A stretch of 64,000 nucleotides of DNA from Alphaproteobacteria bacterium (GTDB lineage Bacteria; Pseudomonadota; Alphaproteobacteria; Micropepsales; Micropepsaceae): assembly GCA_021325375.1 (NCBI GenBank), contig JAJPHG010000019.1, positions 1 through 64,000 on the forward strand, in the 5' to 3' direction. Positions 5,287 to 35,888 of the stretch are shown here, piece after piece (position 1 is the first letter of the stretch; each line of letters starts with the position of its first letter). Under the pieces are notes generated by a model that did no database searches, was not told the DNA's origin, and saw only the letters and a list, made by a program, of their open reading frames with translations. Made by a program: the position numbers and the translations under genes.

Positions 5287-5416
5287 CCGGCTCGCCTTCG
5301 ATCTGTCCCGGGCGGCGCCGTCTCTCAGCATAGTACATCAATTCGAGATGCGGACCATAGACGAACGATTTCCCGCGATGCTTCGCACGGCGATCTCCGA
5401 GGCGTTATAAGAAGGC

Positions 5417-7581: not shown

Positions 7582-7595
7582 TGATAGCGTTACCA
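7582..7595. promoter_or_regulatory. LacI-type operator TGATAGCGTTACCA
   Basis: Matches the locus consensus TGGTAnCGnTACCA; upstream of the LacI gene at 7795. Confidence 0.7.
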
Positions 7596-8874: not shown

Positions 8875-8907
8875 CCATCGCCCACGAAATGACTTGAGCC
8901 GACGCGA

Positions 8908-8921
8908 TGTTAGCGATAACA
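8908..8921. promoter_or_regulatory. LacI-type operator TGTTAGCGATAACA
   Basis: Member of the seven-site operator set; overlaps the ATG used by the ORF track. Confidence 0.7.
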
Positions 8922-8972
8922 ATCGCGTTCGGCCAGGGTTTGACGGCTGGTGGGTATGGGCGGGAACAACAG

Positions 8973-10133: not shown

Positions 10134-10176
10134 GCCGGACGAAATCGCCACAGCATGCAATCAGCGGCAAGTGGGC

Positions 10177-10944
10177 ATGACGATGCAGCACGCAACGTAC
10201 AGCTGTCTGCGCGGAAAGCGCATCGTGATCACCGGCGGGGGCTCGGGCATCGGGGCTGCGTTCGTCGAGGCGTTCGCGCGTCAGGGCTCGCAGGTGATTT
10301 TTCTAGACATCGCCGACAACGAGTCGCGCTCTCTGGAACGGAAGCTGTCCTCGATCACGCCCACGCCGCGGTTCATGCACTGCGACCTGCGCGATGTGCA
10401 TGCGATCGAGAGCACCTTCGCCCAGATCACGGACAAGTTCGGCCCCGTCGAGGTGCTGGTGAACAACGCCGCCAACGACGACCGGCACGCGCTGGACAAG
10501 GTGACGGCGGAATATTGGGACGAGCGCATCGCGACCAATCTGCGCCACGTTTTCTTCTGCACCCAGGCGGTAATGCCGGCGATGAAAGCGGCGGGCAGGG
10601 GGATCATCCTCAACATGGGCTCGGTATCGTGGCACCTCGCGCTCGCCGACCTCACCGTCTACCAGACGGCGAAGGCCGGCATCGAGGGCCTCACGCGCGC
10701 GCTCGCCCGCGATCTGGGAGTTCACGGAATCCGGGTCGCATGCATCGTGCCCGGCGGAGTGCGTACGCCGCGCCAGACGCGGCTGTGGCACACGCCCGAG
10801 GAAGAGGCGCGCATCCTCGAGCAGCAATGCCTCAAGACGCGGGTCGAGCCGGAAGACGTAGCCGCCATGGCGCTGTTCCTCGCCTCCGATGGCGCGCGCA
10901 TGTGCACCGGACATGAATATTTCGTCGATGCCGGCTGGCGCTGA
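10177..10944 (+). CDS. SDR-family oxidoreductase, XylB-like sugar dehydrogenase
   Basis: GKRIVITGGGSGIGAAFVEAF, NNAAND, YQTAKAGIEGLTRALARDLG; terminal DAGWR. Confidence 0.88.
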   Translation: MTMQHATYSCLRGKRIVITGGGSGIGAAFVEAFARQGSQVIFLDIADNESRSLERKLSSITPTPRFMHCDLRDVHAIESTFAQITDKFGPVEVLVNNAANDDRHALDKVTAEYWDERIATNLRHVFFCTQAVMPAMKAAGRGIILNMGSVSWHLALADLTVYQTAKAGIEGLTRALARDLGVHGIRVACIVPGGVRTPRQTRLWHTPEEEARILEQQCLKTRVEPEDVAAMALFLASDGARMCTGHEYFVDAGWR

Positions 10945-10956
10945 CATGCTGCCGCG

Positions 10957-12741
10957 ATGACCCAGGAGCGCAAGCCCAAGCGGCCGTTCCGCTCGCGCGA
11001 ATGGTTCGACAATCCTGCCCGCATCGACATGACGGCCCTCTATCTCGAGCGCTTCATGAACTACGGCATGACGGCGGACGAGTTCCGCTCCGGCAGGCCC
11101 ATCATCGGCATTGCCCAGTCCGGCAGCGACATCAATCCCTGCAACCGCATCCACCTGGAGACCGTCAAGCGCGCGAAGGATGGCGTGCGCGACGCAGGCG
11201 GGGTGCCGCTGGAATTTCCCACTCATCCCATCTTCGAGGAGTGCCGGCGTCCGACCGCAGCCATCGACCGCAATCTTGCCTATCTCGGCCTCGTCGAGAT
11301 CCTTCATGGCTATCCGCTCGACGCCGTCGTGCTGACGACGGGTTGCGACAAGACGGCGCCGGCGGCGATCATGGCCGCCGCCACCGTCGATATTCCCGCC
11401 ATCGTACTTTCCGGCGGCCCGATGCTCGACGGACATTTCGAGGGCGAGCTGGTCGGCTCGGGCTCGGTGATCTGGAAGAACCGGCGGCGCCTCAGCATGG
11501 GCGAGATCGATGAAGACGCGTTCATCGAGGCTGCGGTCGCGGCGGCGCCCTCGCTCGGGCACTGCAATACTATGGGGACCGCGTCGACGATGAACGCGGT
11601 TGCCGAAGCGCTGGGACTGTCGCTGCCCGGGTGCTCGGCCATTCCCGCGCCTTATCGCGAGCGCGGGCAGATGGCCTATGAAACCGGCCGGCGCATCGTC
11701 GCGATGGCCTATGAGGATCTGAGACCGTCGCAAATTCTCAACCCTGCGTCCCTTCGAAACGCCATCGCCGTCATCGCGGCGATCGGCGGCTCCACCAATG
11801 CCCAGCCGCATCTGAACGCGATCGCCCGTCACGCCGGTTTCGAGCTTGCGCCGCGGGATTGGGTCGGGTACGGCCGCGACGTCCCGCTGCTGGTGAACAT
11901 GCAGCCGGCGGGAAAATATCTGGGCGAGCGCTTCCATCGCGCCGGCGGCGTCCCTGCCGTCATGCACGAATTGCTGCGCGCGGGAAGGATCGACGGAACC
12001 GCGTTGACCGTTACCGGAATGAGCGTGGCCGACACCCTCGAAGGCCGCGCCAGCAAGGACCGCGAGATGATCGCCGCCTATGAGGCGCCGCTGCAGGAGC
12101 GTGCCGGCTTCATGGTCCTAAGCGGCAATCTGTTCGATTTCGCCATCATGAAGGCGAGCGTGATCTCGCAGGAGTTCCGTGCGCGTTATCTCTCGCGCCC
12201 CGGCCGCGAGAACGTGTTCGAGGGGCGCGCTGTCGTCTTCGACGGTTCGGAGGACTATCACGCGCGCATCAACGATCCGGCGCTCGGAATCGACGCGCAA
12301 TCCATCCTCGTCATGCGCTCATCGGGACCCGTCGGCTGGCCCGGCTCGGCCGAGGTCGTGAACATGCAGCCACCGGACGCGCTGTTGAAACAAGGGATCG
12401 CCAGCCTGCCAACCATAGGCGACGGCCGGCAATCCGGAACCTCGGACAGCCCGTCGATCCTGAACGCGTCGCCGGAAAGCGCGATCGGCGGCGGCCTCTC
12501 GTGGCTCAGGACCGGCGACATCATCCGGATCGACCTGAATGAAGGACGCTGCGACGCATTGGTGCCTGACGACGAGATCGCGCGGCGCAAGCGCGGGGCA
12601 CCCCTTGCGATCCCGGAAAGCCAGACACCCTGGCAGGAGCTGTTCCGCGCGACGACGGGCCAGCTCGATACCGGCGCGGTCATGGAGATGGCGGTGAAGT
12701 ACCGCGCCGTGGCGCGCAAGACGCCCCGGCACAATCATTGA
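10957..12741 (+). CDS. IlvD/Edd-family dehydratase, D-xylonate dehydratase-like
   Basis: IGIAQSGSDINPCNRIH, TTGCDKTAPAAIMAAATVDIPAIVLSGGPM, GHCNTMGTASTMNAVAEALGLSLPG: Fe-S dehydratase signatures. Confidence 0.92.
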   Translation: MTQERKPKRPFRSREWFDNPARIDMTALYLERFMNYGMTADEFRSGRPIIGIAQSGSDINPCNRIHLETVKRAKDGVRDAGGVPLEFPTHPIFEECRRPTAAIDRNLAYLGLVEILHGYPLDAVVLTTGCDKTAPAAIMAAATVDIPAIVLSGGPMLDGHFEGELVGSGSVIWKNRRRLSMGEIDEDAFIEAAVAAAPSLGHCNTMGTASTMNAVAEALGLSLPGCSAIPAPYRERGQMAYETGRRIVAMAYEDLRPSQILNPASLRNAIAVIAAIGGSTNAQPHLNAIARHAGFELAPRDWVGYGRDVPLLVNMQPAGKYLGERFHRAGGVPAVMHELLRAGRIDGTALTVTGMSVADTLEGRASKDREMIAAYEAPLQERAGFMVLSGNLFDFAIMKASVISQEFRARYLSRPGRENVFEGRAVVFDGSEDYHARINDPALGIDAQSILVMRSSGPVGWPGSAEVVNMQPPDALLKQGIASLPTIGDGRQSGTSDSPSILNASPESAIGGGLSWLRTGDIIRIDLNEGRCDALVPDDEIARRKRGAPLAIPESQTPWQELFRATTGQLDTGAVMEMAVKYRAVARKTPRHNH

Positions 12742-12787: not shown

Positions 12788-12801
12788 TGGTAGCGCTACC
12801 A
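12788..12801. promoter_or_regulatory. LacI-type operator TGGTAGCGCTACCA (perfect palindrome)
   Basis: 14-bp perfect dyad upstream of the MFS/GH3 pair. Confidence 0.8.
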
Positions 12802-12889: not shown

Positions 12890-14332
12890 ATGGCGAAAGC
12901 CAATTACGCGCTTGTCACCGCATTGACCTTGAGCGCGACGCTCGGGGGATTGCTGTTCGGCTACGATACCGCCGTCATCTCCGGCGCGGTCAATGCGATC
13001 GACGTGAATTTCATCGATCCGCGCGGCCTCGCCGAGGGCGCGCGCAACTGGCTGTCCGGTTTCACCATCGGCTGCGCGCTGCTCGGCTGCGTGATGGGTG
13101 CCGCGCTCGCCGGACCGCTTTCGACCGGGATCGGGCGCAAGGGCGGATTGTTCATCGCGGCGCTGCTGTTCTTCATCTCGTCCCTCGGCTCCGCGTTTCC
13201 GGAAGTCTTGTGGGGCGCGTTTGGCGCGCGCGGCGCGGACGCGCTGTGGCCCTTCATCGGCTACCGCCTGATGGGCGGCGTCGCGATCGGCATGGCTTCG
13301 ATGCTGGCGCCGATGTATATCGCCGAAATCGCGCCCGCGAAATCGCGCGGCCTGTTCGTGACGATGCAGCAGATCGCGATCGTGGGCGGCATCAATCTCG
13401 TCTACTATGTGAACTACCTCATCCAGACGCGCGGCGACCATGCATGGCTGATGTCCACGGGCTGGCGCTACATGCTCGCCTCCGCGGCGTTGCCGGCCGC
13501 CCTGCTGCTGGTCTGCATGCTGCTGGTGCCCGACACGCCGCGCTACCTGGTGATGAAGGGGCGCATCGACGAGGCTTTGAAGCTGCTTCAGCGCCTGGGC
13601 GGCGACGATCCGGCCACCACGCTGAAGGAGATCGAGGGCACGCTCGTGGTGCGCAACGAGCGCATCATGAAGTTCGGTGGGCTGGTTCTTTTCGTCGGCA
13701 TCATGCTTTCGGTGTTCCAGCAAATCGTCGGCATCAACGCCGTGCTGTACTACGCGCCGCTGATGTTCGAGAACATGGGCGCATCCACCGATTCCGCCTT
13801 CCTCCAGGCCGTCATCGTCGGGGCCGCCAACACCATCTTCACGCTGGTCGCGTTCTTCACCGTCGACATACTCGGCCGCAAGCCGCTGCTCGTCATCGGC
13901 GCGCTGATCATGGGGGCTGCGATGATCACGCTGGGTGTCCTGTTCGACCGGCACGCGGTCGGGTTTTGGGCGGTCGTCGCGGTCGTCGTCTATATCGCGG
14001 GCTTCGCCCTGTCCTGGGGCCCGGTGGTCTGGGTGCTGCTCGCCGAGATCTTCCCGAACTCGATCAAGGGCAAGGCGATGTCGCTCGCGGTGGCCGCGCA
14101 GTGGATCTCGAATTTCCTCGTGACCCAGACCTTCAAGGTGCTGGATGGCAGCACGGCGCTCAACACCATGTTCAATCACGGTCTGGCCTATTTCCTCTAC
14201 GGCGGCGCGAGCATCCTGGCGGCGCTGTTCGTGATCCGCTACGTGCCCGAGACCAAGGGGCACAGCCTCGAAGCCATCCAGCTTCTGTGGCAGGGCGGCC
14301 GCGCGGCCTGGGCGAAGAAAGCGGCGCCGTGA
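12890..14332 (+). CDS. MFS sugar porter (XylE-like)
   Basis: TLGGLLFGYDTAVISGAVNAI, PDTPRYLVMKGR, FQQIVGINAVLYYAPLMFENMG, VPETKGHSLE motifs. Confidence 0.93.
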   Translation: MAKANYALVTALTLSATLGGLLFGYDTAVISGAVNAIDVNFIDPRGLAEGARNWLSGFTIGCALLGCVMGAALAGPLSTGIGRKGGLFIAALLFFISSLGSAFPEVLWGAFGARGADALWPFIGYRLMGGVAIGMASMLAPMYIAEIAPAKSRGLFVTMQQIAIVGGINLVYYVNYLIQTRGDHAWLMSTGWRYMLASAALPAALLLVCMLLVPDTPRYLVMKGRIDEALKLLQRLGGDDPATTLKEIEGTLVVRNERIMKFGGLVLFVGIMLSVFQQIVGINAVLYYAPLMFENMGASTDSAFLQAVIVGAANTIFTLVAFFTVDILGRKPLLVIGALIMGAAMITLGVLFDRHAVGFWAVVAVVVYIAGFALSWGPVVWVLLAEIFPNSIKGKAMSLAVAAQWISNFLVTQTFKVLDGSTALNTMFNHGLAYFLYGGASILAALFVIRYVPETKGHSLEAIQLLWQGGRAAWAKKAAP

Positions 14333-16749
14333 CGTCTCCTGTGACGCGGAATGTTTCCATCCTGGCTGTCGCGCTGGCGCTTTCGGCGTGTTCGTCGCTG
14401 AACCTCGTCTCGGAAAAGCCCGAGGCTGCGGCGCTGGACGCGACCGGCGCGGTGATCCACCCCGCGCTCTGGCCGACGGGGCATAGTGGCGTCGCCGCCG
14501 ACGCGAAAGTCGATGCCCAAGTCGCGGACCTTCTCGCGAAGATGAGCGTCGAGGATAAGGTCGGGCAGATCATCCAGCCGGACATCAATTCCATCACCGT
14601 GGACGACGTGCGAAAATACCGCTTCGGCTCGATCCTGAACGGCGGCAATTCGGGACCGGGCGGGAACGACCGCGCGCTCGCACCCGAATGGCTGAAGGCG
14701 GCGGATGCGTTCTGGGCGGCCGAGATGGACGCGCCCGAGGGCCGTCCCGCGATCCCGCTCATCTGGGGATCGGACGCGGTTCACGGCAATTCCAACATCA
14801 TCGGCGCGACCGTCTTTCCGCACAATATCGGATTGGGCGCGATGCGCGATCCGGACCTCATGCGCGAGATCGGCGCGGTGACGGCGAAGGAATTGCGCGT
14901 CATTGGCGGCGACTGGACCTTCGCGCCGACCATCGCGGTGGTGCGCGACGACCGCTGGGGCCGTACTTACGAGGGCTATTCCGAAGACCCGCGCATCGTG
15001 AAGGACTACGCCTCCGCCATTGTCGAAGGCATCCAGGGCAGGCCCGGTGACGCCGATTTCATGGCCGGCGCGCATGTCATGGCGACGGCCAAGCACTTCC
15101 TGGGCGACGGCGGCACCGACGGCGGCGTCGATCAGGGCGACAACGTCTATGGCGAGGAAGGCCTGCGCAACGTCTTTGCGCCGCCCTACGAGTCCGCGAT
15201 CGCCGCGGGCGTGCAGACCGTGATGGCGTCCTACTCGACCTGGCGCGGCCAGAAGATGCATGGCAACCATGCGCTGCTCAGCGACGTGCTGGTCGGGCGC
15301 CTCGGATTCAACGGCTTCGTCGTCGGCGATTGGAACGGCTATGCGCAATTGCCGGGCTGCTCGAAAGAGAGTTGTCCGCAGGCGCTGCTTGCCGGCATCG
15401 ACATGTACATGGCGCCCGACGGTTGGAAGGCGCTCTACGCGAATACATTGGCGCAGGTGAAGTCCGGTGAGATTCCGATGGTGCGGCTGGACGAGGCGGT
15501 GACGCGCATCCTGCGCGTGAAGCTGCGTGCCGGCGTGTTGGGGGAGCCGAAGCCGTCCGCACGGGCTTATGCGGGGCAGTGGGATCTGCTGGGCGCGCCG
15601 GAGCATCGCGCGGTCGCACGTCGTGCGGTGCGTGAATCGCTGGTGCTGCTCAAGAACGAGAACCGAATCCTGCCGCTGCCGCCGAAGCTGAATGTGCTCG
15701 TCGCCGGCGATGGGGCCGACAATCTCCCCAAGCAGAGCGGTGGCTGGACGATCTCGTGGCAGGGCGACGGCAACAGCCGAGCCGATTTCCCAAACGGCTC
15801 GACGATCTTCGAAGGCATCCGTGATGCGGTGAGCGCAGCGGGCGGAACGGCAACGCTGAGCGTGGACGGCAGCGCAGCGGCAAAGCCGGACGTGGCCATC
15901 GTCGTGTTCGGCGAGAATCCGTATGCGGAGTTCCAGGGCGACCGCGCGAATGTCGACTACCAGTCCGGCAACCGGCGTGACCTGAAGCTGCTCCAGGAGC
16001 TTAAAGCGCGCGGGATTCCCGTGGTGTCCGTCTTTCTTTCGGGCCGGCCGCTTTATGTGAGCCCCGAGATCAACGCGTCCGACGCATTCGTTTCCGCGTG
16101 GCTTCCGGGCTCGGAAGGCGCGGGCGTCGCCGACATGCTGTTCAAGAAGGCGGACGGCACGATTGCCTATGATTTTCACGGCCGTCTCTCTTATTCCTGG
16201 CCGCGCGCACCGGAGCAGACGCCACTCAATGTGGGGACGGAGCCTTACTATCCGCTGTTCGCCTATGGCGACGGCATGGACTACGCCCATCCCAGGAATA
16301 TCGGGATCATTCCGGAGGCGCCGGAGCTCCAGGCCTCGATCGCCAATACCGACCGCTATGTCGAGGGCGGCCAAGCGCTCGCGCCGTGGAAGCTTGCCGC
16401 CACGCGGGACGCGATCACCGTCACCGGGCCCAAGATCAATCTCACGCGCAACACCGACGGCGACATGGCTCTGGTCGTAACGTTGCATGTGGGCAAGACG
16501 CCCACGGCGCCTACCTCGCTGGGCGTAGCCGGCGGCGTGGTGGACGTGACAGAGATGCTGCGCAGCGCGGGCGTTACCGCGACCGTCGCGGTGAGGCTCT
16601 CCTGCTTCCGCGCGGCCGGGGCCGACATGCGCGCCGTCGATACGCCGCTTCTGCTTTCGTCGCGCGGCGGGGTTACGGCGACGATCGTGTCGGCGGGGCT
16701 TTCACCGGGCGTGGGGGCGCCCGTCTGTCCGCCCGCGCCGCAGACGTGA
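14329..16749 (+). CDS. Glycoside hydrolase family 3, beta-glucosidase-like, lipoprotein-type signal
   Basis: KMSVEDKVGQIIQPDINS, DRWGRTYEGYSEDP, ATAKHFLGDGGTDGGVDQGDN, GFVVGDWNG nucleophile region. GTG start overlaps the preceding stop (GTGA). Confidence 0.92.
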   Translation: MTSPVTRNVSILAVALALSACSSLNLVSEKPEAAALDATGAVIHPALWPTGHSGVAADAKVDAQVADLLAKMSVEDKVGQIIQPDINSITVDDVRKYRFGSILNGGNSGPGGNDRALAPEWLKAADAFWAAEMDAPEGRPAIPLIWGSDAVHGNSNIIGATVFPHNIGLGAMRDPDLMREIGAVTAKELRVIGGDWTFAPTIAVVRDDRWGRTYEGYSEDPRIVKDYASAIVEGIQGRPGDADFMAGAHVMATAKHFLGDGGTDGGVDQGDNVYGEEGLRNVFAPPYESAIAAGVQTVMASYSTWRGQKMHGNHALLSDVLVGRLGFNGFVVGDWNGYAQLPGCSKESCPQALLAGIDMYMAPDGWKALYANTLAQVKSGEIPMVRLDEAVTRILRVKLRAGVLGEPKPSARAYAGQWDLLGAPEHRAVARRAVRESLVLLKNENRILPLPPKLNVLVAGDGADNLPKQSGGWTISWQGDGNSRADFPNGSTIFEGIRDAVSAAGGTATLSVDGSAAAKPDVAIVVFGENPYAEFQGDRANVDYQSGNRRDLKLLQELKARGIPVVSVFLSGRPLYVSPEINASDAFVSAWLPGSEGAGVADMLFKKADGTIAYDFHGRLSYSWPRAPEQTPLNVGTEPYYPLFAYGDGMDYAHPRNIGIIPEAPELQASIANTDRYVEGGQALAPWKLAATRDAITVTGPKINLTRNTDGDMALVVTLHVGKTPTAPTSLGVAGGVVDVTEMLRSAGVTATVAVRLSCFRAAGADMRAVDTPLLLSSRGGVTATIVSAGLSPGVGAPVCPPAPQT

Positions 16750-18682
16750 CCGCCATCTCGAACGGCACCGCCGGCAGCGCCGCCGGATTGTAGAGATTGC
16801 ACACCGGGCTGTCGGCCCAGCAGAAGCGTACACGCGCGGGGAGGATTCCTTTCGGCGCGTCGAGCACGACGCTGTCCTTCGCGACATGTGCTTGCGCATA
16901 GTCGCAGCGCTTCGCGTCGCAGAGCTGGAACCCGATGGGCCGCCGATCCCCATAGACCACGAGCGGCGTGTTGGAGAAAGCGACGACGACCTGCTTGCCC
17001 TTGCGGGTTGCGCTCGCGGGCATCGGTCCGGAATCGACGACGGTCGCACCGTAGATCAGCCGTTCGGCGTTGAGGGCGAGGCGCCGTCCCAGCTCCTGCT
17101 TGTTGGTGGGATGGATGTCGTAACGGTCGCCTATGTCGACGGTAACGGCGAGCGCGGCAAGGCGGTCGGCGGCGACCGCCTTGCGCTGCGCCTCGCGCAG
17201 ATTGGCCCAGGACGAATCCGCCGGCCCGCCGGCCGCGTCGCCGAAATCGGGAAGCTGCGCGATCAGGAAGGGCAGGCCGGGCTCGTCGAACGCGCCGCGC
17301 CAATCGGCCATCAGCCCGCCGAGCAGGCGCGTATATTCCTCGGGTTCGGCCACGTTCGCCTCGCCCTGATACCAGAGCACGCCGCGCAACTGATAAGGCG
17401 CGATGGGCGCGATCATGCCGTTGTACAGCAGCGTCGTTCCGGTCGCGTCCGACCATGGCGCATGCGGCGCCGCGCGCGTCTCGATCAGCGGCGCGGCGAT
17501 CCTGTAGCGCCAGCGTTCGGGGAGCTGCAGCGTCTCGCCGCCGGAGAATTTCAGTGTACGGACGGACGGAGAACCCCACAACCCGCCGCCCCCGCCGGTG
17601 TCCAGCACGCCGACCGCGATGATGTTCGCGCCCGGCTTGAGCGTGCCCACGGGCAGCGCATAGACGCGCGGCTGGTCCCAGCCTTCTGAGCCGCCGAGAT
17701 GGACGCCGTTCACCCAGGTGTCGTCGATGTCGTCGACGGGACCGAGCGACAGTATCGCTGGCTGCGCCGCCTGGACGGGCGTCAGCTCGACGGTCGTGCG
17801 GAACCAGGCGATCCCGTCGAAATTCTTGAACGCGGCGATGCCGGAGCTTTCCCACCAGCCGTTGAGCTTCATCGTGTCCCAATGCGAGTCGTCGAAATCG
17901 GGCGCGCTCCACGTCGGCGAGGCCATGTGGCCGGGATCGTGCGCCATCCACCACGCGTCCATCAGCGTGCGCCATTTCGCGCGCGCCGTGTCGGGCGTCT
18001 TCTGATATTCGGCGAGGATCGCGAGGGTGCGCTCGTAGCCGCCCACCGCGCGCGTGCCGCTGTCGCTGAGCCAGGCCTGGATGGTCGAACCGCCCCAGGA
18101 ACTTTCGATCAGGCCCAAAGGCACATTCACGTCCTTCTGCAACTCCCGTGCGAAAAAGAAGCAGGCAGCCGAGAAATCCTTCACTGTCGCGGGCGAAGCG
18201 GCCGCCCATTTCGCGCCGGCGTCTGTCGTCGCGACGGGGGTAACGCTGCCGGCACGCGCAAGATGGAAAAGGCGGATCGTGTCGTTGGTGGAATTGGCGA
18301 GCTCGGTGTCGGTGTTGGACGCCGCGCGAACCGGCAGCTCCATATTCGACTGGCCGGAGCACAGATACACGTCGCCGACCAGGATGTCGTGCAGCGTCTC
18401 GCTGTTCTTTCCCGATTGCACTGTGAGGTCATAGGGGCCGCCGGCCGCGAGCGGCGCAAGCTCGATGTGCCAGGCTCCGCTCGTGTCCGCAATGGCACTC
18501 GCGGTTTCGCCCGCAAGGGTTGTGCTGACCGTCTGCGACGGCAGTGCCGTGCCCCAGAGGCGGATCGGCTTGCCGCGCTGGAGGACCGCGTGATCCTGGA
18601 ACGGCGGGGCGAGAAGCGCGGCCTGCGCCGGGCCGCACGCCAACAACGCCGCGAATAGCGCTGGCCACAGTCTCTCAAACAT
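16673..18682 (-). CDS. Sialate O-acetylesterase-like (SGNH with beta-sandwich insertion; CE20-like xyloglucan acetylesterase)
   Basis: LVGDVYLCSGQSNMELPV (Gly-Gln-Ser-Asn-Met), IQAWLSDSGT, DIHPTNKQELGRRLAL (SGNH Asp-His). Start ATG at 18682 with signal peptide. Confidence 0.85.
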   Translation of the reverse strand: MFERLWPALFAALLACGPAQAALLAPPFQDHAVLQRGKPIRLWGTALPSQTVSTTLAGETASAIADTSGAWHIELAPLAAGGPYDLTVQSGKNSETLHDILVGDVYLCSGQSNMELPVRAASNTDTELANSTNDTIRLFHLARAGSVTPVATTDAGAKWAAASPATVKDFSAACFFFARELQKDVNVPLGLIESSWGGSTIQAWLSDSGTRAVGGYERTLAILAEYQKTPDTARAKWRTLMDAWWMAHDPGHMASPTWSAPDFDDSHWDTMKLNGWWESSGIAAFKNFDGIAWFRTTVELTPVQAAQPAILSLGPVDDIDDTWVNGVHLGGSEGWDQPRVYALPVGTLKPGANIIAVGVLDTGGGGGLWGSPSVRTLKFSGGETLQLPERWRYRIAAPLIETRAAPHAPWSDATGTTLLYNGMIAPIAPYQLRGVLWYQGEANVAEPEEYTRLLGGLMADWRGAFDEPGLPFLIAQLPDFGDAAGGPADSSWANLREAQRKAVAADRLAALAVTVDIGDRYDIHPTNKQELGRRLALNAERLIYGATVVDSGPMPASATRKGKQVVVAFSNTPLVVYGDRRPIGFQLCDAKRCDYAQAHVAKDSVVLDAPKGILPARVRFCWADSPVCNLYNPAALPAVPFEMAVTSAARADRRAPPRPVKAPPTRSSP

Positions 18683-18706
18683 TCTGTCCCCACCCCGGCT
18701 TGCCAA

Positions 18707-18720
18707 TGGTAGCGCTAACA
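18707..18720. promoter_or_regulatory. LacI-type operator TGGTAGCGCTAACA
   Basis: Between divergent acetylesterase and 18764 genes. Confidence 0.75.
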
Positions 18721-18763
18721 ATCTAGCGTATCGGCGGCCGCAGACAACACCTCGGGGTCGGAT

Positions 18764-20659
18764 GTGAACGGATTCAAACTCACTGCGGCATTGTGCGCCT
18801 GTCTTCTCCTCGGCACCCCTGCCGGAGCCGCCCCAAGCCAGTACAAGAATTTCCGCGTCGCGGTCTATGTCGTGGTCAACGCAACCGAGGCGCTGTCCGA
18901 CGCGGACGAATTCGCGCGGGAATACGCGCGCGTCGCGTCCCAAGTGAAGTTCGACCGTGTCTATATAGAAGTATATCGCAGCCACAATTTCGCGAGTGAT
19001 GCGCAGATCGAGGCGGTGAAATCGTTCTTCCGCGCCAAGGGCATTACCGTCTCGGGCGGCGTGACGCTGGCCGCTGGCGGGCAGGGCGGCCAGTTCGGCA
19101 CCTTCGATTACGAGAAGGCGCAGGACCGCGCGGAATGCCGCAAAGCCGTCGAACTCGCCGCGCGCCATTTCGACGACATCATCATGGACGACTTCTTCTT
19201 CTATAACTCCAAGAGCGATGCCGACATCAAGGCCAAGGGCAAACGCAGCTGGACGCAATACCGGCTCGACACCATGCGCCGGGTCTCGCGCGAGCTGGTG
19301 CTCGGCCCTGCCAAGGCGGCCAATCCGCGCGTGCGCATGATCATAAAATATCCGAACTGGTACGAGCATTTCCAGGGGCTGGGATATGACCTGGAGAAGC
19401 AGTCGCAGATGTTCGCCGGCATCTATGCCGGCACCGAGACGCGCGACCCCGAGATCACCGATCAACTGCTCCAGCAATATGAGAGTTACGAGATCGTTCG
19501 CTACTTCGGCAACATCCGGCCCGGCGGCAATGGCGGCGGTTGGGTGGACACTTTCAGCACGCGCTACGCCGACCGCTATGCCGAGCAGCTCTGGGACACC
19601 CTGTTCGCCAAGGCGCCGGAAATCACCCTGTTCAGCTGGGGCGGCCTTGCGGACGCGCACGCCATCGAGCCGGGAGAACGGCCGTGGAAGGACCAGAAGA
19701 CGAGTTTTGACTGGAAGGCCGCAATGTCGTCGGTGCCCAACGCCGGATGGGCGCGCGTCGCGGGGGCAGCGCTGGAGAATGTCGATCCGGTGATCGGGCT
19801 CCTCGGCAATCCGACCGGCATCGCGAGCTACAAGCCCTATCAGTCCAGCAGCGACGAGGATTTCCTGCAGAACTATCTGGGCAATATCGGCTTGCCGGTC
19901 GAGATGACGCCGGTCTATCCGGTTGAGGCGCGTACGGTCCTGCTCACCGAGAACGCGAAGGCCGATCCGGGGATCGTGGCGAAGATCGAAACTTCATTGC
20001 GGGCGGGACACAATGTCGTCATCACGTCCGGCTTGCTGCGCGCGTTGCAGGGCAATGGCATCGAGGACGTCGTCGAATGGAGCGTCACCGGTCAATTCGC
20101 GGCCGTGCGCGATTTCCTCAACGGTTACGGCGCGGGCAACGGCACGAGCCTGAATGATCCCGGCCGCGAGGCCAAGGCGATCGTGTTCCCGGAAATCCAT
20201 TTCTACACCAATGATTCCTGGCCGATCGTGCGAGACGTCGCGGGCGCGAAGGGCTACCCGCTCCTGCTAATGAACCGCTATTCCAACGGGATCATCTATG
20301 TGCTCGCGGTACCGCAGAACATCGGCGATCTCTACGATTTGCCGACGGGTGCATTGACCCAGATCAAGACTTATCTGCAGGACGGCGCGGCCGTTCGCAT
20401 CGACGCGCCGGCGCATGTGAGCCTCTTCACTTATGACAACGGCACGTTCGTCGTGGAGTCGTTCCGCGACACCGCCATGCCGGTAACGATCTCGCTGGAG
20501 GGAAGCGGTCGATCGCTACGCAACGCGATGACGGGCAAGCCGCTGGTGCCGGTTGCGGAGCCGGAGACGCCGCGCCGACAGCTTCAGCCGTCCGCGCGAA
20601 CGGCTTTCGCAACGATGGTCCCGCCCCATAGCTGGCAAGTATTCCGCGTCGTGAAATAG
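18764..20659 (+). CDS. Secreted protein of unknown family, possibly a TIM-barrel glycoside hydrolase
   Basis: Signal peptide, FDDIIMDDFFFYNSKSD, MIIKYPNWYEHFQG, C-terminal beta-rich region; lies inside the polysaccharide locus. Confidence 0.6.
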   Translation: MNGFKLTAALCACLLLGTPAGAAPSQYKNFRVAVYVVVNATEALSDADEFAREYARVASQVKFDRVYIEVYRSHNFASDAQIEAVKSFFRAKGITVSGGVTLAAGGQGGQFGTFDYEKAQDRAECRKAVELAARHFDDIIMDDFFFYNSKSDADIKAKGKRSWTQYRLDTMRRVSRELVLGPAKAANPRVRMIIKYPNWYEHFQGLGYDLEKQSQMFAGIYAGTETRDPEITDQLLQQYESYEIVRYFGNIRPGGNGGGWVDTFSTRYADRYAEQLWDTLFAKAPEITLFSWGGLADAHAIEPGERPWKDQKTSFDWKAAMSSVPNAGWARVAGAALENVDPVIGLLGNPTGIASYKPYQSSSDEDFLQNYLGNIGLPVEMTPVYPVEARTVLLTENAKADPGIVAKIETSLRAGHNVVITSGLLRALQGNGIEDVVEWSVTGQFAAVRDFLNGYGAGNGTSLNDPGREAKAIVFPEIHFYTNDSWPIVRDVAGAKGYPLLLMNRYSNGIIYVLAVPQNIGDLYDLPTGALTQIKTYLQDGAAVRIDAPAHVSLFTYDNGTFVVESFRDTAMPVTISLEGSGRSLRNAMTGKPLVPVAEPETPRRQLQPSARTAFATMVPPHSWQVFRVVK

Positions 20660-20666
20660 CCGTGCT

Positions 20667-21599
20667 ATGCTCGCGCTCATGAGCGGCAGGCTTTCGCGGC
20701 GTGCATTGCTGGGCTGTGGCGCAGCCGCCTGGACTTTTCCGGCCGCGGCTCTCACCGGCGAAACGGCCTTCGTCGAAAACGCGGTCAATCTTATGACGAT
20801 CGGCGTGTCGGTCGCGGGGCAGGGACCCTATCGCTTCGTCGTCGATACCGGCGCGGACCGCACGGTGATCGCGCAGGAGGTTGCCGAGGCGCTGAACCTG
20901 CCGCGCGGAGACAAGGCGGCCGTCGCCGGTATAGCCCGCACGGTGGTTGCCGACACCGTGCACGCCGGCAGGCTCCGCCTGGGTGCGATGGAGACGGAGG
21001 AATTGAACACGCCGGTGCTGCCGCGCACATGGCTAGGCGCGGACGGCTATCTCGGTCTCGACGTGATCGATGGTCACCGGATCATCTTCGATTTCCGCAA
21101 CCGCGTGATGACGTTCGGCGGGGCGCCGTCGAGCTACTTCTTCGACTACGTCAAAGCGGACGAGACCGTGCTGCACGGCAGTGGCAGCGGAGGGCATCTG
21201 CGTTCCGTCGACTGCCGCGTGGACGGCGTCCATGCGGCGACCTTCCTCGATACCGGCGCGGACGTTTCGGTGGGAAATTCGAAACTGTTCGAAGCGCTTT
21301 CGCGGGCGGGCAATGGCTTCCTTCCGACAGAGCCGGTGATGTTGAGCGGCGTCACCGGCGGCAGCGTCGCCGGCCGCGCGCTCGCCATCGAACGGGCGCG
21401 GCTCGGCGGTTTCGACCTCAGCACCAGCGGTCTGGTGATCGCGGACCTGCCGATCTTCGAGCTGTGGAACCTCGCGGACAAGCCGGCATTGTTCATCGGC
21501 ATGGATTTCCTGAGCCATTTTTCCAAGCTCACGATCGACTACGGCCGCAAGCAGTACCGCCTCGAACTCGCAAGCCTCATGCTGGCGAGCCAGACGTAG
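20667..21599 (+). CDS. Two-domain retropepsin-like aspartyl protease, secreted/TAT-like signal
   Basis: Two DTGA motifs: YRFVVDTGADRTVIAQEVAEAL and ATFLDTGADVSVGNSKLFE. N-terminus has SRRALLGCGAAAW. Confidence 0.8.
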   Translation: MLALMSGRLSRRALLGCGAAAWTFPAAALTGETAFVENAVNLMTIGVSVAGQGPYRFVVDTGADRTVIAQEVAEALNLPRGDKAAVAGIARTVVADTVHAGRLRLGAMETEELNTPVLPRTWLGADGYLGLDVIDGHRIIFDFRNRVMTFGGAPSSYFFDYVKADETVLHGSGSGGHLRSVDCRVDGVHAATFLDTGADVSVGNSKLFEALSRAGNGFLPTEPVMLSGVTGGSVAGRALAIERARLGGFDLSTSGLVIADLPIFELWNLADKPALFIGMDFLSHFSKLTIDYGRKQYRLELASLMLASQT

Positions 21600-22890
21600 A
21601 CCGCCAATAGCTGCCATCCGGATAACGATACATCTCGGCGCTCTCGCGCAGGAATTCCACGCTGAAGCCGGGCTTCGCGCTCGGCCAATACGCGCCGTCG
21701 TGCACGTCGACGGGGTCGACGAAATGCTCGTGCAGATGGCCCGCAAACTCGACCATGCGATCGTCGCGCTCGCCGCCGATCGCGATCAGGTCGATGGCGC
21801 CGATATGCTGCACGTATTCGCACAACCCGACGCCACCGGCATGCGGGCACACGGCCTTGCCGAACTTCGCCGCCATCAGCAATACGGCGAGATTCTCGTT
21901 GAGGCCGGCGAGCCTGCAGGCGTCGACCTGCACCACGTCGATCGCGTCGGCCTGCAGGAACTGCTTGAACATGACGCGGTTGTGGCAGTGCTCGCCGGTG
22001 GCCACGCGCACCGGCCGCACCGCCTCGGCGACCCTGCGGTGGCCGAGTATGTCGTCGGGGCTGAGCGGTTCCTCTATCCACCACGGATCCGTCGACATGA
22101 GGTGACGTACGCGGGCGATCGCCTCGTCGATCTCCCATACCTGGTTGGCGTCGATCATCAGGTGGCGGCCGCCGCCCAATTCCTCGCGCGCGATCCTGCA
22201 GCGCGCCAGGTTCTGTGCGTCGTCCCTGCCGACCTTGAACTTGAGCGCCTGCCAGCCTGATGCCACCGCCTCGCGGCACAGCAGGCGGATCTTCTCGTCG
22301 CCGTAGCCGAGCCAGCCGGCAGAGGTGGTGTAGGCGTCGAGCCCGCCGGTCTTCATGCGCGCGAGCCGTTCGGCGCGCCCGGCACATTTGTCCTGCAGCA
22401 GCTCGACCGCTTCCTCGCGCGTCAGTGCGTCGGTGATGTGGCGATAGTCGATGAGCGTGGCGATCTCCTGCGGGCTCATGTCGCAGACGAGTTGCCACAC
22501 CGGCTTGGCTGCGACCTTCGCCCAGAGGTCCCATGCCGCGTTGATCACCGCCGCGGCCGCAAGGTGCACGACACCCTTCTCCGGTCCCAGCCAGCGCAAC
22601 TGGCTGTCGCCGGTGACGCGGCGGGAGAACGCAGCCATGTCCGCTTGGATCTCCTCCAGCGACAGGCCGGTGACGAAGGGTGCGAGCGCGCGGATCGCCG
22701 CCGCGCAGATCTCGTTACCTCGGCCGATGGTGAAGGTCATGCCGTGACCTTCAAGGCCATCGACCGAGGTCTTGAGGACGCAAACCGCGGCCGAATAGTC
22801 CGGATCGGGGTTCATCGCGTCCGAGCCGTCGAGAAGCTTCGACGTCGGAAAGCGCAGATCCAGCGTTTCGACGCCCGTGATGCGGATCAT
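21577..22890 (-). CDS. L-fuconate dehydratase (enolase superfamily)
   Basis: DLRFPTSKLLDGSDAMNPDPDYSAAVCVLKT, ALKFKVGRDDAQNLARCRIAREE, HLMIDANQVWEIDEAI, VATGEHCHNRVMFKQFLQADAIDVVQVDACR. Confidence 0.93.
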   Translation of the reverse strand: MIRITGVETLDLRFPTSKLLDGSDAMNPDPDYSAAVCVLKTSVDGLEGHGMTFTIGRGNEICAAAIRALAPFVTGLSLEEIQADMAAFSRRVTGDSQLRWLGPEKGVVHLAAAAVINAAWDLWAKVAAKPVWQLVCDMSPQEIATLIDYRHITDALTREEAVELLQDKCAGRAERLARMKTGGLDAYTTSAGWLGYGDEKIRLLCREAVASGWQALKFKVGRDDAQNLARCRIAREELGGGRHLMIDANQVWEIDEAIARVRHLMSTDPWWIEEPLSPDDILGHRRVAEAVRPVRVATGEHCHNRVMFKQFLQADAIDVVQVDACRLAGLNENLAVLLMAAKFGKAVCPHAGGVGLCEYVQHIGAIDLIAIGGERDDRMVEFAGHLHEHFVDPVDVHDGAYWPSAKPGFSVEFLRESAEMYRYPDGSYWRSTSGSPA

Positions 22891-23285: not shown

Positions 23286-25544
23286 TCATTTCACCGGATC
23301 GCCGTAGAATAAGCCACGTCCGTCCGTGCCGAGATAGACCCTGCCGAAGATGCGCGGGTCGCCGCAGATCGAGCGGAAGCGGCGGCCATATTGATGCGCG
23401 TCGTCGTTGATCCGCTTCCAGTCGCGGCCGGCGTCGTCGGAGCGCCATACGCCGCGGATCTGACCCTGCCAGCCGAACGAGAACAGCGCTGGATAAGTCG
23501 AAGCCGGGGGCGCCTTGCCGAAGCCGAGCGCCTCGATGTTCATATGGATGACGACTTCGCGGAACGATCTTCCGCCGTCGGCCGAATGCAGCAGCCTGCC
23601 GGCACCCGTGCGGAACCACAGATCGCCCGCGATCCCAGGCGTCGCCATCAGCGGCCACTGGGCCTCGCGCCAGGTGGGCCAGTCGGTGTGGGGATCGACA
23701 GAGAGGCCGGTCGTATCCAGCGTCGCGAAGGTCGCGCCGCCATCATCGCTCGCGCGGATCGTGCCGTTGGCGAAATCCACAGCATAGAAGCGTTTCGAAT
23801 CGACACGGTCGGCGACGACATGCGCCCACATGGGAAGCGTGCTCAGCGCTGTCCAGGTCGCTCCTCTATCGCGTGTCAGAAGGGGAACCGGCGTCATAAC
23901 GACGAAGGTTGCTCCGTCCGCGGAGACGACGACGGCTGCATCGCCCTCGGCATCGTAGTGGCGTGCTTCGATCTCGCCTTTGTCGTTGGTGCCTCTCAAG
24001 GGCGGCACGACAAGCGGTGCCCAGCTTTTCCCGCTATCGAGCGAATAGGCCAGGGTCGGCGAATAGCCTTTCGCGCGCGGCGCGGCCGTGCCGCCGCGCA
24101 CCAGCACGTTGGGCGCCATCCCGGCATAGTCGATCGTGTTGGTGTTGGAAAAGATCGGATCGGTGAAAAGCGTGTCCGGCGAGCGGTCGAGATCGTCATG
24201 CACGAAGCCGGCGATGTCGCCGAAGCCGCTGACGAGATGCGGGCCGGATGCCGGGCTGGTCAGGGCGAGGATCGCCGTCTCTTCCACGCCTGCAACCCAC
24301 GGCTTCCAAATCAGCGGCTGGCGCGCGTCGGCGTTCCGTAGCTCGTCCGTCGCGTAGACGGTCGCACCGGTTGTGTAGGCGACATGACCGGAGTCGAAGG
24401 GGTCGATGGCCAGCGCGGCGATCCACCAGCCGAAATCCGCTTCGGTGTTTCCCCATTGATGGCCCCAAATGAGGAAAGGTGTCGCCGATACGTCTCGGTG
24501 GCTGAGCTCCTCGAGGCTTTTCCAAGTGATGCCGCCATCGGTCGTGCGCCACACCGTGTCCTTGGGATGATAGCGGTTCAAGGTCGCGACAACAGCCGTG
24601 CCGGGATGCGCGCGGTCGGCATCGATCGCCATGTAGCCGCCCGGCGGGCGCTTTGCATCCCTGTCCGGCGTGATGTCGGTCATCCTGTTCGATGCGACGT
24701 CGAGCTTGAAGACGGCGCCGTCGGTCGCGCCGTTCGGGCCGATGCTATTGGAATAGGCGATATAGACGGTGTTCTTGCCGTCGAACGCGGCTTTCACCGG
24801 AAGCAGGTCCCCGCGCGGTTCTCCCGGGACCGGCGTCCAGCTCTCGCCGGCATCGTCGCTGCGGAACAGGTGCCGTACGCCCGGATCGGCGCTCGCGACG
24901 ACGATGGTGCGCGTGGGTATGTTCTTCTTCTCGCCGCTTGGGACAAAGAGCACAAAACTCAATCCGGCGTTGGGCGCATCTCCCCGAGGCCGTATACCGA
25001 GGCCCTTCTGCGGAAAGGACAAGATGGGCGACCAGTTCGCCCCGGCGTCGGCGCTCTTTTCGAGCCCGTCGTTGCGCGAGCCGAAATAGAGAAGGGATGT
25101 GTCGTTGGGGTCGACGGCCAGCCTCTCTCCCAGGCCGCGGCCCGCCTCGTTGCCGCCCATCTTGAAACGCGTCGGGAATATCTGCCAGTGCGTGCCGCGG
25201 TCGCGGCTTCGCAGGATGGCTGCGGCTTCACGCGTTCCCGCCGCGAGATAGACGACGTTCGGATCGGCGGGGTCGGGCGCTATGCTTTCGACTTCCATAT
25301 ATTCGCCACGGTCGATGCCGTCTTCGATCGGTATCCATCGCTTTGCACGATCGTCCCAGCGATAGGCGCCTCCGATATCGGTGCGCAAATAGGCGAGCCC
25401 TTTCTCCGCCGGGCTGAAGGCGATCCCCGGCGAGAACCCGCCGCCGCCGACCGTCACGTTCTTCCATGTATAGGGTTCGTCGGCCTGTGCCGCGCCGGCG
25501 GCCGCCAACAGAAAGAATCCCAGACAGCGAAAGGCGGAAATCAC
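23286..25544 (-). CDS. GH74 xyloglucanase-like (BNR/sialidase-type propeller repeats)
   Basis: YTWKNVTVGGGGFSPGIAFSPAEKGLAYLRTDIGGAYRWDDRAKRWIPI N-terminus and multiple SxDxGxxW repeats. Confidence 0.93.
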   Translation of the reverse strand: MISAFRCLGFFLLAAAGAAQADEPYTWKNVTVGGGGFSPGIAFSPAEKGLAYLRTDIGGAYRWDDRAKRWIPIEDGIDRGEYMEVESIAPDPADPNVVYLAAGTREAAAILRSRDRGTHWQIFPTRFKMGGNEAGRGLGERLAVDPNDTSLLYFGSRNDGLEKSADAGANWSPILSFPQKGLGIRPRGDAPNAGLSFVLFVPSGEKKNIPTRTIVVASADPGVRHLFRSDDAGESWTPVPGEPRGDLLPVKAAFDGKNTVYIAYSNSIGPNGATDGAVFKLDVASNRMTDITPDRDAKRPPGGYMAIDADRAHPGTAVVATLNRYHPKDTVWRTTDGGITWKSLEELSHRDVSATPFLIWGHQWGNTEADFGWWIAALAIDPFDSGHVAYTTGATVYATDELRNADARQPLIWKPWVAGVEETAILALTSPASGPHLVSGFGDIAGFVHDDLDRSPDTLFTDPIFSNTNTIDYAGMAPNVLVRGGTAAPRAKGYSPTLAYSLDSGKSWAPLVVPPLRGTNDKGEIEARHYDAEGDAAVVVSADGATFVVMTPVPLLTRDRGATWTALSTLPMWAHVVADRVDSKRFYAVDFANGTIRASDDGGATFATLDTTGLSVDPHTDWPTWREAQWPLMATPGIAGDLWFRTGAGRLLHSADGGRSFREVVIHMNIEALGFGKAPPASTYPALFSFGWQGQIRGVWRSDDAGRDWKRINDDAHQYGRRFRSICGDPRIFGRVYLGTDGRGLFYGDPVK

Positions 25545-25558
25545 GTTTCAATCCGTTC

Positions 25559-25572
25559 TGGTAACGTTACCA
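25559..25572. promoter_or_regulatory. LacI-type operator TGGTAACGTTACCA (perfect palindrome)
   Basis: Between divergent GH74 and GH95 genes. Confidence 0.8.
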
Positions 25573-25623
25573 TAACCATCGTCCAAATCGGCCGGACGTG
25601 CAAGAATGACGAGGGGACGAGCC

Positions 25624-27981
25624 ATGCGTTCAAGCTTTGCGATCGTCGTGCTGCTGCTCTGCGCGGCAGCGCCGGCGCGCGCCGCTTCCGTGCTTACGCT
25701 GTGGTACGAGCGTCCGGCGGCGGATTGGGAGCGAGAGGGCCTGCCCATCGGCAACGGCGCCATGGGCGCGATGATCACCGGCGGCGTCGCGGAAGAGCGC
25801 GTCCAGTTCAACGAGAAGACGCTGTGGACTGGCGGACCCGGTTCGGCGCAAGGCTATGATTTCGGCCTGCCGGACCGTTCGTTGGCCGGAGCCGTCAAGC
25901 AGGTGCAGGCGCAGATCGCGCGTGACGGCCGGATGGAGCCTGAAGCGGTCGCAAAGATCCTCGGTCACAAGGCGCGGGGTTACGGCGATTATCAGAGCTT
26001 CGGCGATGTCGTGTTGGTGTTCGCCGGGCTCGATGGCCCTGCATCGAACTATCGCCGCGAGCTGGACATCGAGCACGCGGTCGCACGGGTGAGCTTCACC
26101 GCGGGCGGCGCACACTACACCCGAGAGTATATCGCGAGCTTTCCGGGTCACGTCGTCGTCGAGCGCATCTCCTGCGATCATCCGGGAAGAATCGGCTTTC
26201 GCACGTCGTTCGCGATCCCCGAAAACCGCACGGTTTCGTCATCCGCGAGGGACGGGCTCATCACGGCATCGGGCGCGCTCAAGGACAACGGCTTGAGATA
26301 TGAGTCCGAGATGCAGGTCATCGCGTCGGGCGGAACGCGCAGCGACGGCCCGGACGGCAGCGTCACGGTGGCGGGCGCCGACAGCGCGGTGCTCATTCTG
26401 GCCGCGGGCACGAACTATGCACTCCACTATCCGGACTATCGCGGACCCGACCCGCACGCTGACGTCGCCGCGCGCGTGCGCGAAGCGGTCGCGCAAGGCT
26501 ACGACGCGCTGCTCGTCGATCACGAGCGCGACTATCGCGCCCTGTTCGATCGCGTGACGCTTGATCTCGGGCAGGCGATGCCGGACGTGCCGACCGACAG
26601 GCTGCTCGCACAGTACCGGGACGGCAGTTCCACCACGGACCGCGCGCTGGAGGCGCTGTATTTCCAGTACGGACGCTATCTTCTCATCTCGGCATCCCGC
26701 GCCGGTTCCCTCCCGGCCAATCTGCAAGGCGTCTGGAACGATTCTGCGACGCCGCCATGGAACGCCGACTATCACGTCAACATCAATTTGCAGATGAACT
26801 ATTGGCTCGCCGAAACCGCCAACCTTTCCGACACCACACCGCCTTTCTTCGCGCTCGTCGACGGTCTGGTGGCGCCGGGACGGCTCGCCGCGCGGCGGAT
26901 ATTCGGCGCGGAAGGCTGGATCGCCAACCTCAATACGAATCCGTGGGGCTATGCCGGGCTGATCGATTGGCCCACTGCGTTCTGGCAGCCGGAAGCCGCG
27001 GCATGGCTGGCGCAGCATTATTACGAGCACTACCGCTTCTCGCGGGACCGGTCGTTTCTCAAGACGCGCGCCTATCCGTTGATGAAGGAAGCGGCGCAGT
27101 TCTGGCTCGAGGCGCTTGTCACGGATCCGCGCGACGGAAGACTCGTCGTCTCGCCGAGCTATTCGCCCGAGCACGGCCCGTTCTCCGCTGGAGCATCGAT
27201 GTCGCAGGAGATCGTGTTCGACCTGCTGACGAATACGTCCGAGGCTGCGGGGCTCTTGGGCGACAACGCTTTCCGCGTGAAGATCCGCGCGGCGCTTGCG
27301 AAGCTCGATCCCGGATTGCGTGAAGGCTCCTGGGGACAACTGCGCGAATGGAAAGAAGACTGGGACGACCGTTCGGACGATCACCGCCATGTCTCTCATC
27401 TTTTCGCGCTTCATCCCGGCCGGCAAATCTCGCCGGGAGCGACGCCCAATCTCGCCGAGGCGGCGCGGATGTCTCTGCTGGCGCGCGGAGACGGCGGCAC
27501 CGGTTGGAGCAAGGCCTGGAAGATAAATTTCTGGGCGCGCCTTCGGGATGGCGATCACGCGCACAAGATGCTGGCGGAACAATTGCGGGGAAGCACGATG
27601 TCGAACCTGTGGGATACGCACCCGCCCTTCCAGATCGACGGGAATTTCGGCGCGACCGCAGGCGTGGTCGAGATGCTGCTGCAGAGCCAGAACGGCGAGA
27701 TCGACATCCTGCCAGCTCTGCCCACCGTCTGGGCCGCCGGCGGCGTGAAAGGTCTGCGGGCTCGCGGCGACGTGACGGTCGACATCGATTGGTTTCGTGG
27801 TGCAGCGCAGCGAGTTGTTGTGACGGCGGTACACAGCGGTGAGGTCGTCCTGCGAAGCACGATCTTTCAAGGCAAGTTCGTTTTCGGCGGAAAGCGGCCA
27901 ATAGCCCTGAAAGGTGCGGGAAACTGCCGTCGGTTTTATGCAACGCGGGGAGAGCGTTACGTGATCGAGCGTGCTCTCTGA
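25624..27981 (+). CDS. GH95 alpha-L-fucosidase
   Basis: LTLWYERPAADWEREGLPIGNGAMGAMITGGVAEERVQFNEKTLWTGGPGS and PANLQGVWNDSATPPWNADYHVNINLQMNYWLAE. Confidence 0.94.
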   Translation: MRSSFAIVVLLLCAAAPARAASVLTLWYERPAADWEREGLPIGNGAMGAMITGGVAEERVQFNEKTLWTGGPGSAQGYDFGLPDRSLAGAVKQVQAQIARDGRMEPEAVAKILGHKARGYGDYQSFGDVVLVFAGLDGPASNYRRELDIEHAVARVSFTAGGAHYTREYIASFPGHVVVERISCDHPGRIGFRTSFAIPENRTVSSSARDGLITASGALKDNGLRYESEMQVIASGGTRSDGPDGSVTVAGADSAVLILAAGTNYALHYPDYRGPDPHADVAARVREAVAQGYDALLVDHERDYRALFDRVTLDLGQAMPDVPTDRLLAQYRDGSSTTDRALEALYFQYGRYLLISASRAGSLPANLQGVWNDSATPPWNADYHVNINLQMNYWLAETANLSDTTPPFFALVDGLVAPGRLAARRIFGAEGWIANLNTNPWGYAGLIDWPTAFWQPEAAAWLAQHYYEHYRFSRDRSFLKTRAYPLMKEAAQFWLEALVTDPRDGRLVVSPSYSPEHGPFSAGASMSQEIVFDLLTNTSEAAGLLGDNAFRVKIRAALAKLDPGLREGSWGQLREWKEDWDDRSDDHRHVSHLFALHPGRQISPGATPNLAEAARMSLLARGDGGTGWSKAWKINFWARLRDGDHAHKMLAEQLRGSTMSNLWDTHPPFQIDGNFGATAGVVEMLLQSQNGEIDILPALPTVWAAGGVKGLRARGDVTVDIDWFRGAAQRVVVTAVHSGEVVLRSTIFQGKFVFGGKRPIALKGAGNCRRFYATRGERYVIERAL

Positions 27982-28077: not shown

Positions 28078-28091
28078 TGATACCGCTACCA
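28078..28091. promoter_or_regulatory. LacI-type operator TGATACCGCTACCA
   Basis: Upstream of the TonB-dependent receptor; a weaker related dyad TGTGATCGATAACA lies at 28271-28284. Confidence 0.7.
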
Positions 28092-28333
28092 TTGATGAGG
28101 CAGCGGGGGGCCACCTTCTCAAAAATAATCGCACGGCACGAGTGGACGGCGGGCTTCGCCGTTCGCCTGGAGGCGCGAGAAAATCCGCGAATGTTATCGG
28201 GGTTTTTCGAGCCTGCGTGAGCGTAATCCGCGATACTTCCGGGTTTCGTTTCGAGTTTCGGCTTCGGGCGTGTGATCGATAACACTGCGAGCGCGAAATC
28301 AGGCGCCGGGGAAACCTTACGGAGGGATTGCAA

Positions 28334-31459: not shown

Positions 31460-31672
31460 GGGCTCGCAGGCTCTAGCGTTGGGCGGCGCAACGATACCCT
31501 TCCGGTGTTCTGTCGAGGTTTCGATGGGACACCGGAGGGGACCCATTCACGGGGTACGTTCGCGCACCGGTGGCTGCCGGCGCGGCGGCGGAATGAATGC
31601 CCGCGAATGAATTTCGTGGTGTAGCATCGTGCCCGTCGAACGCATCGTTTCGTGCAGACGGAAAGTCGCAGA

Positions 31673-35780: not shown

Positions 35781-35817
35781 CGGCGCACGGTCTTGCAAAG
35801 TGGTCTGGGGCGCGGCA

Positions 35818-35831
35818 TGGTAACGCTACCA
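35818..35831. promoter_or_regulatory. LacI-type operator TGGTAACGCTACCA
   Basis: Upstream of GH35/GH31/MFS operon. Confidence 0.78.
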
Positions 35832-35888
35832 TTGCGGCTTGAAAGCGGATTCCATACAGCCGCGACCGCGGGGCGCGGGAGGGACGAA

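Follow-up and report, generated by a model that had tools for sequence, protein, structure and literature searches.

Loci for xyloglucan utilization pass for well-understood systems in which each enzyme belongs to a named family. Among the closest described systems is the Xanthomonas xyloglucan locus, which comprises GH74, GH31, GH35, GH95 and CE20 enzymes together with TonB receptors, xylose genes and an MFS transporter (PMC8245568). The xyl-box through which XylR acts in Xanthomonas citri is TGGTAGCGCTAACA, and the xyloglucan operon of that species has its own xylA copy, reportedly with no xyl-box 5' of it (PMC10380989). In Caulobacter, XylR is a LacI-family repressor that recognizes a 14-base operator (PMC7198004).

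The window considered here, meaning the whole 64,000-nucleotide stretch of DNA that was analysed, holds what its predicted genes describe as a full fucogalactoxyloglucan locus of the Xanthomonas kind (Table 1). The enzyme families, receptor, transporter and nearby xylose genes are the same as those in the accessible part of the Xanthomonas description, and the window adds a secreted 631-residue protein, a GH3 enzyme and two Trp-halogenase-like genes, with no counterpart of the 631-residue protein named for Xanthomonas in that part of the source (PMC8245568). The xylose routes appear to differ as well, being isomerase/kinase in the Xanthomonas locus as covered there and oxidative in the window (PMC8245568): the D-xylose 1-dehydrogenase gene and the putative FAA-hydrolase and IlvD/EDD assignments would fit the oxidative (Weimberg) pathway.

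The xyloglucan locus and its shared operator

Table 1. Features of the xyloglucan locus and of the 631-residue protein, in window coordinates
Feature	Coordinates	Strand	Basis or remark
Operator, 5' of LacI regulator gene	7582..7595	.
LacI-family regulator, predicted XylR-like by operator and neighbourhood	7795..8874	+	PF00356, PF13377
FAA-hydrolase family protein, putatively XylX-like	8907..10133	+	PF01557
Operator, at start of FAA-hydrolase-type gene	8908..8921	.
D-xylose 1-dehydrogenase, XylB type	10051..10944	+	NCBIfam NF053674, 430 bits (cut-off 400)
IlvD/EDD dehydratase, putatively D-xylonate dehydratase-like	10957..12741	+
Operator, 5' of MFS transporter and GH3 genes	12788..12801	.
MFS sugar transporter	12890..14332	+	PF00083
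GH3 beta-glycosidase	14341..16749	+
Carbohydrate acetylesterase of CE20 kind, SASA domain	16673..18683	-	closest solved relatives 9h4u, 7kmm (Xanthomonas esterase)
Operator TGGTAGCGCTAACA, LacI-type, common to CE20 and 631-residue protein genes	18707..18720	.	starts 57 bases 5' of GTG
631-residue secreted protein, candidate glycoside hydrolase	18764..20659	+	ORF and homologues; GTG start, 631 codons
Predicted Sec signal peptide, residues 1-22	18764..18829	+	cut after AGA; read from sequence
N-terminal domain, residues 25-348, predicted TIM barrel	18836..19807	+	AlphaFold2 of domain; PDB fold matches
D142-D143, end of predicted strand 4	19187..19192	+	D143 invariant, D142 in 16/17
E225, end of predicted strand 6 (GTETRDP), invariant	19436..19438	+	candidate second catalytic residue
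Middle alpha/beta domain, ~residues 350-540, amidotransferase-like by pattern only	19811..20383	+	motif reading, weak model
C-terminal beta-strand domain, ~residues 545-631	20396..20656	+	strands, pLDDT about 75 in part
Retropepsin-like aspartyl protease	20667..21599	+
Enolase-superfamily sugar-acid dehydratase, putatively fuconate dehydratase-like	21577..22890	-	no NCBIfam cut-off passed
GH74 xyloglucanase	23286..25544	-	best relatives xyloglucanases, E down to 2e-142
Operator, between divergent GH74 and GH95 genes	25559..25572	.
GH95 alpha-L-fucosidase	25606..27981	+
Operator, upstream of TonB-dependent receptor	28078..28091	.
TonB-dependent receptor	28328..31459	+
GH35/GH42-like beta-galactosidase with DUF5597	35793..37538	+	weak Pfam GH35/GH42 match
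Operator, at GH35-like/GH31 genes	35818..35831	.
GH31 xyloglucan alpha-xylosidase	37548..40403	+	2xvg, 7kmp, 5jou; closest: Cellvibrio, Xanthomonas, Bacteroides enzymes
L-fucose permease FucP, true start probably inside ORF	40310..41668	+	TIGR00885 above cut-off

The initial annotation had placed the gene of the 631-residue protein under a LacI-type operator and divergent from an acetylesterase, and both observations hold. The roughly 80 bases that separate its start from that of the CE20-related gene contain a 14-base palindrome, one of seven perfect copies of the pattern TGNTANCGNTANCA in the window, where shuffled windows gave a mean of 0.35 even with one mismatch permitted. The palindrome is letter-identical to the Xanthomonas xyl-box (PMC10380989). 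As in the described XylR/xyl-box regulons (PMC10380989, PMC7198004), the same 14-base operator accompanies a LacI-family gene and xylose genes; unlike the XylR regulons of Xanthomonas and Caulobacter, the regulon predicted here spans the whole xyloglucan locus. The seven sites would place this locus and the Weimberg-type xylose pathway under one putative LacI-type regulator, and the gene of the 631-residue protein appears to belong in a single regulon with those for GH74, GH95, the GH35-like enzyme, GH31, GH3, CE20, the TonB receptor and oxidative D-xylose metabolism. The XylR xylose switch would then extend to an entire xyloglucan locus in Alphaproteobacteria. A xyloglucan setting had already been suspected, and the evidence for it goes well beyond what the initial annotation had available.

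Operators also occur shortly 5' of some homologous genes, including genes from other orders, without mismatch at -65 in locus L030 and with one mismatch each at -52 in L031 and -87 in L001. In L023 and L025 a weak site with two mismatches lies at -60, a score reached by 7-11% of shuffles, and two perfect operators precede a xylose isomerase gene that is followed directly downstream, in the same direction, by the homologue. For the homologues in L002, L003, L018-L022, L024, L026 and L027, a search of the adjoining 400 bases gave no good operator.

Several other genes of the window deserve mention. Two Trp-halogenase family genes (PF04820) at 31652-34749 have no obvious role in a sugar locus, and relatives of them lie in other xyloglucan loci (L003 2348-5280; L031 18279-19784). 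A 337-residue secreted protein with no Pfam match is encoded at 34767-35780, between the halogenase and GH35-like genes, and a Cupin_8 gene at 4255-5331 recurs in L031. A gene for a retropepsin-like protease adjoins that of the 631-residue protein or its homologue in three genomes (the window; L018 2723-3649; L027 11105-12088).

A secreted protein with full-length homologues

The open reading frame of the 631-residue protein is a real gene, because the alignment with its homologues spans the entire protein and the 17 full-length rows share 108 invariant residues. For the same reason the protein is no orphan, as it had been called: 16 other sequences, from Alphaproteobacteria, Gammaproteobacteria and a human-gut Bacteroidota polysaccharide utilization locus (PUL), align full length without large gaps and are 42-64% identical to the protein of the window. 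Its description as secreted is borne out by a Sec-type leader, read from the sequence as MNGFKLTAALCACLLLGTPAGA / APSQYKN with no lipobox. A similar hydrophobic leader begins the full-length homologues, and the leaders inspected show no lipobox.

The initial annotation could name no family for the protein, and searches of Pfam, NCBIfam and the PDB with single sequences, and of the PDB with profiles as well, returned none. No Pfam or NCBIfam family rose above its curated cut-off, the best being a chance match of 13 bits (cut-off 33), and phmmer and two profiles gave chance matches only in the PDB. Profile comparison with hhalign, which scored 88.7% for GH42 against the GH35-like enzyme as a positive control, gave probabilities of 1.1% for similarity to GH42 proteins, 0.2% for GH31 and 0.3% for GHL10 (represented by a single sequence). 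Nothing linked the protein to the GH35-like enzyme of the locus, all comparisons reaching at most 1.1%, and hhalign gave no support for a relation of the middle domain to GH42 proteins. GHL6 had no match in the genome, the gene studied here included. The family is thus unnamed in Pfam, NCBIfam and the PDB by these searches, and it may correspond to a recent CAZy family.

Distribution and genomic neighbourhoods

The family is widespread yet patchy. Homologues were found in 11 of 96 genomes of the same family (Micropepsaceae), in 2 of 301 genomes from a second alphaproteobacterial family and in 2 of 399 of a phylum sample; the single match among 385 genomes of a class sample, in a single-sequence search, was the source genome itself. 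Further copies occur in Nitrospirillum, in three gammaproteobacterial MAGs and in MT836551.1, a record from human faeces labelled 'Bacteriophage sp.', and Firmicutes may hold relatives too. Searches of viral contigs with the protein, with two alignments and with a DNA pattern yielded no relative, and none was found on plasmids. In the tree the window copy clusters with Nitrospirillum and the second alphaproteobacterial family instead of its congeners, at a support of 91/91 that stays under the starred level, a placement that hints at transfer. One genome carries a second fragment of the family at a contig end (L028, G441:C1, ~8906-9081), with genes for a TonB receptor and a pectate-lyase-like protein close by.

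Homologues in other lineages have xyloglucan genes as neighbours: TonB, GH35-like, GH31 and LacI genes in L003; GH31, GH35-like, GH3, CE20 and LacI genes in L031; and TonB, GH74 and GH95 genes in L018 and L019. A TonB receptor directly adjoins the homologue in L018, L019 and L030. Seven same-genus homologues (L020-L026) lie outside any xyloglucan locus. In their slot the gene is mostly followed by DUF3617, ClpP-like and GH13 genes, and a xylose isomerase gene lies 5' in two.

Co-occurrence across genomes extends the association beyond adjacency. Among the 96 genomes of the family, 11 carry the gene, 10 a full-length xyloglucan GH31 and 8 both, so that GH31 is present in 8 of 11 carriers and 2 of 85 non-carriers (Fisher p = 5e-8, inflated by shared ancestry); restricted to the approximately 70 same-genus genomes the value is 7e-7, inflated likewise. 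In five of the eight double carriers (G400, G407, G432, G443, G445) the gene stands apart from the xyloglucan genes of the same genome. GH74 is present in 13 of 16 carrier genomes, with G403, G409 and G1120 lacking it, and GH95 in 10 of 16; the genomes of L031, L030 and L003 have GH74 and no GH95. Because GH74 is the commoner of the two in carriers, the gene tracks the backbone of xyloglucan and its xylose rather than fucose. Several carriers do without GH95, which makes a fucose-related role unlikely.

The homologue in MT836551.1 (18608-20503) is 42% identical over 95% of the length and retains all candidate catalytic residues. It follows genes for SusD, an N-acylglucosamine-epimerase-family protein and GH9, in a stretch without GH31. 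That a second phylum has the family in a PUL independently supports a function in glycan degradation. The record itself (12958-20503) appears to be a Bacteroidota PUL segment next to mobile-element-like genes, and its phage label looks wrong.

Predicted fold and candidate catalytic residues

AlphaFold had been proposed as a check on the fold, and it gave a qualified answer. The full-length model, built from the window protein and the homologues of four loci (five rows), had a mean pLDDT of 43.5 and was not used for fold claims. The N-terminal domain modelled alone with AlphaFold2 reached pLDDT 55.0 and pTM 0.57 and is barrel-like, with beta-alpha alternation. Most of the first four beta-alpha units scored well; strands lie near residues 33-36, 65-69, 95-101, 138-142 and 191-195, followed by a short sixth one at 219-221. 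When this weak model was compared with the PDB by Foldseek, most of the matches were TIM-barrel glycoside hydrolases, at TM-scores of at most 0.44: GH10 xylanase (best, E 2.7e-4), Cwp19, GH164 mannosidase, GH20, GH13 and GH5. The N-terminal domain is therefore probably, rather than demonstrably, a glycosidase-like TIM barrel, because the models are weak and the TM-scores do not exceed 0.44. This agrees with the barrel-like start proposed by the initial annotation, whose three quoted motifs are all present in the translation. Its beta-rich C-terminal part is confined to about residues 545-631; the preceding stretch, about 350-540, is alpha/beta in appearance.

The resemblance is not taken as membership of GH10, GH164, GH20, GH13 or GH5. 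For GH10 and GH164 the predicted barrel half is alike, and GH164 (Bs164, 655 residues) is similar in length to the 631-residue protein, but TM-scores from the weak model are 0.32-0.44, identities are 8-18% and there is no sequence link. Enzymes of clan GH-A carry Glu at strands 4 and 7. In the 631-residue protein, unlike that clan, predicted strand 4 ends in Asp-Asp, a pair that may resemble that of GH84. The initial annotation had proposed this pair for mutation; D143 is invariant, but the divergent homologue of L027 has Gly in place of D142. The invariant acidic residues of the 17 full-length rows are E69, D143, E225, D228, D262 and E274. From the model, D143 and E225 might form the catalytic pair, although we regard this pairing as doubtful, and a retaining mechanism would be a guess. 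A strand-4 Asp with a strand-6 acid is a layout that recalls clan GH-D and GH66, which we note as a lead only.

Proposed function

The 631-residue protein is probably an undescribed sugar-cutting enzyme of the xyloglucan pathway, because it shares its xylose-type switch with the complete enzyme set. We infer a barrel fold, a hydrolase activity and a xyloglucan substrate, and our main reading, at a probability of a little under 60%, is that it acts in the periplasm on xylose-bearing xyloglucan oligosaccharides, as a glycoside hydrolase whose family Pfam and NCBIfam do not name. GH74 would cut xyloglucan extracellularly, CE20 would strip acetyl groups, and the oligosaccharides would pass in through the TonB receptor to be trimmed by GH95, GH35, GH31 and GH3. 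The 631-residue protein would act in the periplasm, most likely on a bond in the xylose-bearing core. As xylose accumulates, the XylR-like LacI repressor would leave the operator, so that the protein would be made during xylose release. No missing step calls for it, since the locus already has all the enzymes of the characterised Xanthomonas system; it might supply a second endo- or exo-activity, an activity at the reducing end, or the removal of a rarer branch.

A bolder form of this reading, which we hold as less likely than not, is that the protein founds a glycoside hydrolase family not described before, shared by Proteobacteria and gut Bacteroidota, whose active site pairs an Asp at strand 4 with a Glu at strand 6 and which performs a xyloglucan step absent from described loci. 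The possible new family of the initial annotation is borne out in part, by the setting, the lack of a name in Pfam, NCBIfam and the PDB and the suggestive fold, while the word orphan falls. A conserved, co-regulated, secreted and familyless protein that recurs in xyloglucan loci and in a PUL of another phylum points to an activity missing from current models.

The protein could instead hydrolyse another xylose glycan or a rare decoration, such as xylan fragments or beta-xylosyl or arabinosyl branches, and belong to the XylR regulon for freeing xylose. The operator is of the xylose type, copies in congeners either follow xylA or occupy a slot that has no xyloglucan genes, and the gene tracks GH74 and GH31 better than GH95, which 6 of 16 carriers lack. 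The genomes with slot copies, however, mostly hold GH74 and a xyloglucan GH31 elsewhere, and we judge this substrate unlikely. Less likely again is a role without catalysis, in which the protein would bind glycans in the periplasm or at the cell surface and pass oligosaccharides between the TonB receptor and the enzymes. The receptor adjacency in L018, L019 and L030, the full complement of enzymes for all known steps and the homologue of L027 would suit such a carrier; a simple binder would not usually have 108 invariant positions, with charged or aromatic residues at the ends of predicted strands accounting for many, and the inspected leaders lack the lipobox. Another barrel enzyme of the pathway (esterase, epimerase, lyase or transglycosidase) is improbable even with a fold so weakly modelled and an epimerase gene beside the Bacteroidota homologue, given nearest folds that are mostly glycoside hydrolases and a CE20 enzyme that already handles acetyl removal.

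One homologue may differ in function. The protein of L027 (9130-10983) has lost both D142 and the PNW motif and keeps D143 and E225, and its neighbours are LacI, MFS and GH3 genes only.
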